From contig NZ_JAOVZU010000012.1 of assembly GCF_025717005.1 (NCBI RefSeq), positions 1-36,097 on the forward strand: a DNA stretch of 36,097 nucleotides. The letters run 5' to 3'. Numbering within the stretch: position 1 is the stretch's first letter; each line of letters starts with the position of its first letter. The DNA comes from Actinotalea endophytica (GTDB lineage Bacteria; Actinomycetota; Actinomycetes; Actinomycetales; Cellulomonadaceae). The position numbers were made by a program, and so were the translations under genes. The notes beneath the pieces were generated by a model that was given only the letters and a program-made list of their open reading frames with translations, searched no databases and was not told where the DNA came from. Of this stretch, positions 661-1,951 are shown piece after piece.

Positions 661-685
661 GGGGCACCTCGCCCCGCCACGCGGT
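661..685 (+). repeat. 25-bp direct repeat, left copy
   Basis: Bases 661-685 are identical to 1927-1951 and in the same orientation. The repeat starts with a small hairpin (ggggc, loop acctc, gcccc at 661-675). Here that is nested in a larger stem made by ccgcg at 655-659 and cgcgg at 680-684. The pair encloses the DUF559 gene and both 72-bp palindromic elements. The repeat could be a target duplication, a recombination site or simply a dispersed hairpin repeat. Confidence 0.8.
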
Positions 686-689
686 TCTC

Positions 690-761
690 GCCGAGTTCGC
701 TGAGCGTCGCCGAGTTCGCTGCTGGTACCCCGCGAACACGGCGCCGGCCAGCGAACTCGGC
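690..761. repeat. 72-bp double-palindromic element, left copy
   Basis: Four copies of a 13-mer (core cgagttcgct) lie at 690, 709, 730 and 749. The first two are direct and the last two inverted, and each pair is spaced by exactly 19 bases. The copies at 690, 709 and 749 are perfect or nearly so and the one at 730 is degraded. The two halves can pair in about 27 of 32 positions around an 8-base loop. A second element with the same arrangement and length is at 1825-1896. The layout resembles REP/BIME-type repeats. Confidence 0.8.
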
Positions 762-907
762 GGGCGTGAGCGGGGGCACGTGGGCCGGCGGCACGTGGGC
801 CGGCGGCACGGTGGTGAGCTCGGCGCTCGGCACGAGTGGCACGGGTGGCCGTGCGTCCATAGGGCGTGCGGACCGCCGGCCGGGCGTTGAGGCGATCGGC
901 GAGTGTC

Positions 908-1810
908 GTGCGGGTGAGCAGCCTGACACCTCCGATCTTGTTGAGCCGCCCGGAGACCTCAGCGGACCTGCGACGACGGGTCCGCCGTGGCGAGCTCGAG
1001 CGTGTTCGGCGCGGCGCGTTCGTGCGTTCAGCCGACCTTGGCGAGCGCCCGCTGCGTGCCGAGACGCTCGCGAGGGCCCGGATCGTGGCCGTCGCTCAGC
1101 AGCTGCGGACGGACTTCTGGTTCAGTCACACGAGCGCGGCGCTCATCTGGGGATGTGACCTCCTCAGGTCACCTGATCACACCGAGGTGATCCAGCGGTA
1201 CCGGGCCGGCCACCGACGGGACCGTGCCGTGGTCCGGCACTTGTGCGGCATCGCGCCGTCGGACCGCACCTTCGTCGAGGGACTCCCGGTCACGACTCTC
1301 GAGCGGACGATGGTCGACTGCGCGTCGCGGCTGCCCGTGCGAGACGCCTTCGTGATGATGGAGTCCGGCTTCAGGCTCGGAGCGGATCGCGCGGTCGTCG
1401 GGTCGATCGTTGCGGCGCGGCCGGGCGCCCGAGGAGTCCGACAGGCAAGGCTTCTGCTCGGCCTTGCCGACGGCCGGACCGAGTCTGCCGGGGAAGCGCT
1501 GACGCTCTGGGTCCTGCGCGGGGCGGGACTACCGGAGCCCGAGCTCCAGGTGGAGCTGCGGACGTCGCTCGGAGTCTTCCGGACGGACTTCGCCTGGCCC
1601 ACCGCGAGGGTCGTTCTCGAGTTCGACGGGCACCTCAAGTACTCGGGACGCTTCGGTCACGCGACTGATGTGCTCCAAGCTGAGAGACGGCGTCAGCAGG
1701 CGATCGAGGACGCGGGGTGGCGGGTCATCAGGCTCACCTGGGACGAGATCGACGATCCGAACCGCTGGCTCGCGGCGCTCCGTCGCGCCCTCGCCGTGAG
1801 AACGGGGTGA
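908..1810 (+). CDS. DUF559 protein: AbiEi-like N-terminus plus Vsr-like PD-(D/E)XK nuclease fold
   Basis: The product is about 300 residues. The N-terminal third (SSLTPPILLSRPETSADLR then RVRRGAFV) looks like the winged-helix AbiEi antitoxin-type domain often found in front of DUF559. The C-terminal 100 residues have the DUF559 signature: an acidic strand VVLEFDGHLKY, a basic helix AERRRQQAIEDAGWR and a final RVIRLTWDEI strand. DUF559 belongs to the PD-(D/E)XK/Vsr endonuclease superfamily, so DNA cleavage is plausible but unproven. The start is uncertain: gtg at 866, 908 or 914 are in frame. The gene sits alone between two 72-bp double palindromes and a 25-bp direct repeat, with no functional link to nagB or the DUF3039 gene. 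A solitary gene wrapped in repeats suggests a mobile or selfish cassette; that is inference. Confidence 0.8.
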   Translation: MRVSSLTPPILLSRPETSADLRRRVRRGELERVRRGAFVRSADLGERPLRAETLARARIVAVAQQLRTDFWFSHTSAALIWGCDLLRSPDHTEVIQRYRAGHRRDRAVVRHLCGIAPSDRTFVEGLPVTTLERTMVDCASRLPVRDAFVMMESGFRLGADRAVVGSIVAARPGARGVRQARLLLGLADGRTESAGEALTLWVLRGAGLPEPELQVELRTSLGVFRTDFAWPTARVVLEFDGHLKYSGRFGHATDVLQAERRRQQAIEDAGWRVIRLTWDEIDDPNRWLAALRRALAVRTG

Positions 1811-1824
1811 GCCGGGGCGACCTC

Positions 1825-1896
1825 GATGAGTTCGCTGATCCGTCGCGAGTTCGCTGGCCCCACTCAGCGAACTGGGCGATGCCCAGCGAACTCGAC
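1825..1896. repeat. 72-bp double-palindromic element, right copy
   Basis: It has the same architecture as the element at 690-761: direct copies of the gagttcgctg core at 1828 and 1847, inverted copies at 1865 and 1884, all spaced by 19, and 72 bases overall. When the two elements are aligned the four core words fall at identical columns while the spacer bases differ. The repeat pattern is therefore conserved rather than the whole sequence. It starts 14 bases after the DUF559 stop codon. Confidence 0.8.
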
Positions 1897-1926
1897 GTTG
1901 TGGGGCGTTGGGAGGCCGTGGGGCAT

Positions 1927-1951
1927 GGGGCACCTCGCCCCGCCACGCGGT
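1927..1951 (+). repeat. 25-bp direct repeat, right copy
   Basis: Identical over 25 bases to 661-685 and in the same orientation. It lies 30 bases beyond the right 72-bp element. Its inner hairpin (ggggc/gcccc) is kept, and an outer stem forms from different flanking bases (cgtgg before, ccacg inside). Confidence 0.8.

Follow-up and report, generated by a model that had tools for sequence, protein, structure and literature searches.

A nuclease gene and a family of dispersed palindromic elements, each made of four short arms, form one co-evolving unit in Actinotalea endophytica and its relatives, and the type of the arms follows the gene. The copy under study lies in a stretch of 36,097 nucleotides of contig NZ_JAOVZU010000012.1 (assembly GCF_025717005.1), hereafter the window, and is bracketed by two such elements. 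The chance that nuclease and dispersed elements make up a two-part repeat system is, in our estimate, somewhat better than even, and the data suggest a partnership of gene and repeat, not reported before, by which palindromes may be spread.

The nesting of the locus (Table 1), with a direct repeat and a double palindrome on each side of a single gene, agrees with the preliminary description, and the coordinates given there for repeats, double palindromes and gene were confirmed. Both double palindromes are copies of a 76-nt repeat (687-762 and 1822-1897; 72% alike). Their arms are not a product of chance, as the window holds 11 of them with at most one mismatch against 3.2 expected, a number that 0/100 shuffles reached. 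The neighbours of the nuclease gene match the Glucosamine_iso (nagB), DUF3039 and helicase families, and none of them is a toxin gene; a toxin-antitoxin operon was rejected on the lack of an adjacent toxin gene.

Table 1. Features of the nuclease locus, in window coordinates.
Feature	Position	Strand	Remarks
25-bp direct repeat, left copy	661-685	+	Peculiar to the present locus
Upstream quartet	693-758		Arms 693-702, 712-721, 730-739 (two bases off), 749-758
AbiEi-like + DUF559/Vsr-like nuclease gene	908-1810	+	ORF open from 866
AbiEi-like region	962-1330	+	Residues 33-155, numbered from base 866
Residues 112-118	1199-1219	+	Site of 4/10 top residue/arm-base co-variation pairs
DUF559 nuclease domain	1559-1780	+	Residues 232-305
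Downstream quartet	1828-1893		Arms 1828-1837, 1847-1856, 1865-1874 (one base off), 1884-1893
25-bp direct repeat, right copy	1927-1951	+	Exact match to left copy

The element, which we will refer to as the quartet, spans 66 bp and comprises four 10-bp arms, two forward ones followed by two reverse ones, at offsets 0, 19, 37 and 56 (a 19/8/19 spacing plan). In A. endophytica (G000) it consists of GAGTTCGCTG twice followed by its reverse complement twice, and the arm consensus over 112 loci is CGAG-N-T-[CA]-G-NNNN. The geometry has shifted as well as the arm sequence, since the quartets L066 and L279 of genome G015 combine a spacing of 19 on one side with one of 20 on the opposite side. Several of the listed quartet copies of G018, G014 and G005 have complementary spacers too, so that a long hairpin could arise from the entire 66 bp; the spacers of the G000 copies, unlike these, are mostly non-complementary.

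The association of gene and quartet was examined in 148 homologue loci chosen as best matches, 144 from the family and four from other families of the order. They derive from 150 loci scanned at first (L125-L130 not among them), from which L150, whose flanks give results identical to those of L210, and L222, without a downstream flank, were dropped; L126 gave no match. At a score of at least 34, a quartet was found upstream in 109/148 loci, downstream in 106/148 and on both sides in 91/148, the other 57 not having one on both flanks, in some cases because a contig end cuts the flank. Plain base shuffling of 80 flanks gave a top score of 33.2, with 0/80 at 34. Matching 10-mer arms were found in 80 of the 91 two-sided loci, while 11 fail the automatic arm-matching rule; this rule is lenient, as 17.7% of mismatched pairs satisfy it, and a strict one is satisfied by 72.5% of pairs within a locus versus 2.6% across loci. 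The median arm agreement is 13/14 within a locus (n=73), 9 among paralogues of one genome (n=17) and 8 between genomes (n=6199). The 10-mer thus varies between loci, even between paralogues in one genome, and the arm type follows the gene. These counts bear out the REP/RAYT-type association of palindrome with gene that had been proposed at the outset. Among the loci from other families of the order, the two-sided plan is clear in L106 and weaker in L105 (33 and 35), and L108 and L109 lie below 34.

The gene occupies the nagB-DUF3039 junction in five of the 19 genomes of the genus (G000, G015, G007, G001 and G011), both neighbours being seen in the first four and the region being followed up to a contig end in G011. 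An empty junction, with nagB adjoining DUF3039, had been suggested as a check and was found in G010, G012 and G002; nagB was not found in the fetched stretch of 10/19 genomes, and G013 gave no match. The arms at the occupied site are of five types, namely GAGTTCGCTG (G000), GAGTTCGGTG (G015), GAGGTCGCTG (G011), GAGGTCGACA (G001) and the CCTGNANGTGC type (G007), the latter picked by eye at a locus that fails the automatic matching rule. Relatives with identical flanks at the same place, an outcome that would have spoken against the original proposal, were thus not encountered. In G007 the homologue at this site (L082/L152) stands out by worn quartets and by arms of an altogether different type. 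Dispersed copies of the own arm were seen for G000, G011, G015 and G007. With up to two mismatches, the G007 arm gave 15 matches in its own genome and 0 to 1 in six other genomes, against 0 to 3 for the backwards controls there. In G001, 33 generic quartets were counted, whose arms are absent from the listing, and the copy count of G011 may be inflated by 9% contamination and by two contigs that repeat each other's matches. The gene looks inherited in place, given that five species of the genus carry it at one junction, and it is the palindrome that is dispersed; the earlier idea of a self-spreading system does not hold for the gene.

Quartet sites, on the other hand, differ between species. 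Of the 14 elements of A. endophytica outside the cassette, 12 were queried for orthology (C16:423 and C19:46133 were left out) and 11 compared, the fragment C18:41820 having no match among the matches listed. In G015 both flanks align at 7/11 sites, five without an element and two (s8 and s10) with a quartet of G015 arms; of the five, s1 is a clean empty junction, and s9 is the site of the half element of G000. In G007 both flanks align at 6/9 sites, none with G000 arms and one, s3, with a G007-type element. Arms have therefore been exchanged at kept sites (s8 and s10 in G015, s3 in G007). At s10, G001 showed no quartet of its own type; among 20 element loci taken from G011 and G015, one (L066) could be aligned across a site that bears an element in G000.

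The 4.25-Mb genome of A. endophytica contains 15 quartets with three or four arms within one mismatch, and one half; a two-arm pattern with up to three mismatches gave 15 forward and 16 reverse matches genome-wide, and its backwards control none. The palindrome, initially described as part of one cassette, does bracket the gene, and it is also dispersed through the genome rather than confined to that cassette. A crude ORF call places the 14 non-cassette sites as 6 convergent, 4 tandem, 2 divergent and 2 inside an ORF; we take the last two, and some of the left neighbours, to reflect spurious ORFs. Arm identity among the copies is 96%, and their spacers are 57% identical, against 36% for shuffled spacers, so that the copies look related by descent. 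One pair, common over 129 bp at 97% identity with unrelated flanks, is a recent copy. An extended form of the element (L052 and L053, at C14:159959 and C16:423, with L054 and L056), of about 129 bp in the closest pair, carries on one side an additional small palindrome, CGCTCATGCCGATGAGCG. At L048, two quartets (C1:323624 and C1:326099) bracket a single 760-aa gene, presumably for an oxidase of the FAD/Fe-S kind, in a cassette-like arrangement around a cellular gene. The genome also carries a second homologue, L111 (C1:349511-350362), with different and weaker flanking quartets of the GAGNCAG type.

The 25-bp direct repeat had been regarded as the end of the cassette, a role that does not extend to the general architecture. 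An outer repeat of at least 15 occurs in 1/90 loci with quartets on both sides, namely the present one; two other loci have outer repeats of 13 and 14, versus at most 11 in 400 mismatched pairs. Within the window, copies with up to four mismatches occur at its own two places alone, and they occur in 0/14 other loci scanned in the same genome. The repeat was thus rejected as a general target-site duplication, and neither such a duplication nor a consistent element end was found.

At the scale of the family, a homologue at E<=1e-30 is present in 155/221 genomes, and the generic four-arm pattern in 119/221, with 1 to 65 copies each, compared with five genomes and 1 to 4 copies for the backwards control. 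The pattern occurs in 100/155 genomes with a close homologue versus 19/66 without one (p=1.7e-6, a value not for independent cases, since the genomes are related), which goes against palindromes scattered at random with respect to the gene, the outcome named beforehand as a possible refutation. At least three quartets were counted in 83/155 gene-positive genomes versus 9/66 without a close homologue, and 1540 of the 1665 counted quartets fall in gene-positive genomes. Eight genomes (G003, G004, G008, G076, G116, G122, G134 and G230) have 3 to 26 quartets and lack a close homologue, and G030, counted among the 9/66, has a split one. The absence of the generic quartet from 55/155 gene-positive genomes presumably reflects other arms or spacings. 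A scan of genome contigs with one sequence revealed one named relative, in Krasilnikoviella flava; 37 candidate stretches of viral contigs held no relative.

The assignment of the product as an AbiEi-like plus Vsr-like nuclease, already made from the bare sequence, stood, with models of both AbiEi and DUF559 matching it. The PADLOC AbiEi model matches residues 33-155 (E=7.8e-13), Pfam AbiEi_4 remains below its cut-off (21 of 25 bits), and Pfam PF04480 (DUF559) lies above its own (22.1 bits, cut-off 20.6). Among 26 homologues, 13 match MTES_1575 and 5 match DUF559 at E<=0.01. Four residues, D241, E252, D254 and K258, which we take to be the catalytic set of the PD-(D/E)XK fold, are conserved at 99-100% in 146 homologues (L150, L222, L269 and L124 left out). 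An AlphaFold prediction with two sequences had a mean pLDDT of 52, too poor for fold searches, and places strands, with very low confidence, before and after residues 112-121 (counted from base 866); a search of solved structures gave one weak match, the endonuclease-like protein 3hrl (E=0.29).

Co-variation between residues and arm bases was computed on 105 loci, that is, the 112 with a quartet of at least 35 minus five off register and two unaligned. The best pair joins R113 with arm position 5 (z 6.4), and residues 112-118 hold 4/10 of the best and 8/40 of the best pairs, in a post hoc search over thousands of residue/base pairs; the other 6/10 lie outside this segment, with P62, L126, T82 and L99 among the residues involved. 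Valine at position 116 accompanies arm base A7 in 19/25 A7 loci versus 3/78 others (9 exceptions in 103), and the two change together on 5 branches (11 and 8 changes; p=7.6e-6, uncorrected for the selection of this pair). Windows of protein identity do not favour residues 112-118, since 165-209 and 285-314 track arm identity better than 105-134. Charged side chains in both AbiEi domains are described as vital for DNA binding in the available part of one study (PMC7319586). From the co-variation we infer that the protein reads the arms, and a direct reading is likely.

Several known systems share features with this one. Like REPs, the quartets are short, dispersed and mostly extragenic palindromes, and as in REP/RAYT systems, where a dedicated gene lies beside its own palindrome type, also in genomes with several, the gene here is flanked by its own type; the RAYT gene is described as single-copy and not self-mobile (available parts of PMC3116915 and PMC3733652). 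According to the same partial texts, RAYTs belong to the tyrosine transposases of IS200/IS605 type and carry an HUH motif, and the tag that terminates REPs is GTAG, whereas the present gene encodes an AbiEi-like plus PD-(D/E)XK protein and its element is a four-arm quartet (19/8/19). An end tag GTAG was not found, some arms (GAGGTAG type) holding GTAG inside. The HUH/Y1 transposase (PF01797, Y1_Tnp) was found in 0/19 genomes of the genus at E<=0.001 and in 5/14 control genomes, and a RAYT as hidden mover was accordingly rejected. By this comparison the system is similar in logic to REP/RAYT and is not a member, lacking two of its defining features. The analogy drawn in the preliminary description survives as regards the dispersed palindromes, the bracketed gene, the type that follows the gene and the presence/absence between species, and does not as regards a self-spreading gene or a 25-bp repeat at the cassette end. 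With type IV AbiEi antitoxins the protein shares the AbiEi-like region, a match to a family of DNA-binding proteins that bind inverted repeats (PMC7319586, in part); here, by contrast, it is fused to a nuclease, repeats flank the gene on either side and occur throughout the genome, and the AbiEii nucleotidyltransferase toxin is absent from its side. DUF559/MTES_1575 Vsr-like nucleases have the same domain, above the Pfam cut-off, and the conserved nuclease-type residues, but the dispersed palindromes set the present case apart: the literature texts available contained none that ties DUF559 to dispersed palindromes or REP. No report was found on DUF559 with AbiEi, and the available parts of reports on REP in Cellulomonas and on DUF559 with transposition apparently contain none on a nuclease-palindrome partnership. 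Finally, MITEs and IS200/IS605 elements also have small non-coding copies related to gene flanks, and differ in that a general target duplication, with outer direct repeats as in such a transposon, was not found here, nor a Y1 transposase in the 19 genomes of the genus.

We propose that the product would be a sequence-specific DNA-binding nuclease, composed of an AbiEi-like reader, which would recognise the 10-bp arms of the quartet, and a Vsr-like PD-(D/E)XK nuclease. Each gene would have its own arm sequence and typically lie between two copies, with further ones dispersed; nicking or cutting at a quartet would allow the element to be copied to new sites, and this copying would maintain the co-evolution of arms and protein. 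The palindrome would spread while the gene stays put, as is the case with RAYTs. Mobilisation by the nuclease is the best explanation we can offer of dispersal, turnover and conserved nuclease residues taken together. That an AbiEi-type reader and a Vsr-like nuclease mobilise their own elements as a second, RAYT-independent class, in which reader and arms have co-diversified into a multitude of private codes throughout a bacterial family, stands in our view at an even chance. The main competitor, rather doubtful in our judgement, is a regulon without mobility, in which an AbiEi-like repressor binds quartets, regulates itself, and marks or insulates gene ends, arms and protein behaving as operator and regulator. 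AbiEi proteins do bind their own promoter at inverted repeats, and Rv2827c of M. tuberculosis binds two sets (PMC7319586, available part); moreover, the sites s8 and s10 kept between G000 and G015 with changed arms, like s3 in G007, are also what pure binding sites would yield. Such a regulon sits poorly with the turnover of sites (5/7 comparable ones empty in G015, one of them that of the half element), with spacers shared above chance and a recent 129-bp duplicate, with a divergent, promoter-like layout at just 2/14 sites by the crude ORF call, and with nuclease residues kept at 99-100% that a repressor does not need.

These nuclease residues would suit a self/non-self or gene-drive nuclease that cuts either at quartets or at places that lack them and biases inheritance in its own favour through recombination between the flanking copies, a reading to which the two flanking copies and the filled and empty nagB-DUF3039 junctions also lend themselves. 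A homing site is normally destroyed by insertion, whereas whole sites flank the gene here; furthermore, the gene keeps to one site in five species, and a drive alone does not account for quartet numbers that reach 65 in a genome, all of which makes it improbable. Short palindromic elements spread in many genomes, and a transposase-like ORF end, presumably ISL3-like, lies 2.6 kb from one element, so that an ordinary MITE moved by another transposase, with the nuclease gene as passenger, might be thought of. This is very improbable given an arm type that tracks the neighbouring nuclease gene, paralogues within a genome included, the 0/19 genomes with matches to the searched family, Y1_Tnp, and the outer repeats of at least 15 at 1/90 loci in place of a general target duplication. 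The convergent position of 6/14 sites would fit terminators of transcription, or structural palindromes of another kind kept solely for their function, which we regard as barely credible: no T-run was seen beside the elements listed, and free variation of the arms with kept pairing, as this predicts, is not seen in G000, where arms are common genome-wide (96%, spacers 57%) and different from those of related species.

The proposed system, with its gene in place and its palindromes dispersing, bears on a Pfam family of unknown function, DUF559, part of which gains a testable role from a nuclease linked to its own dispersed sites, protein and arms both having changed in sequence. If the proposal is true, REP-like systems would have arisen with an unrelated enzyme. 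The system also provides dozens of naturally matched protein and DNA specificities, with 105 usable loci in this analysis.
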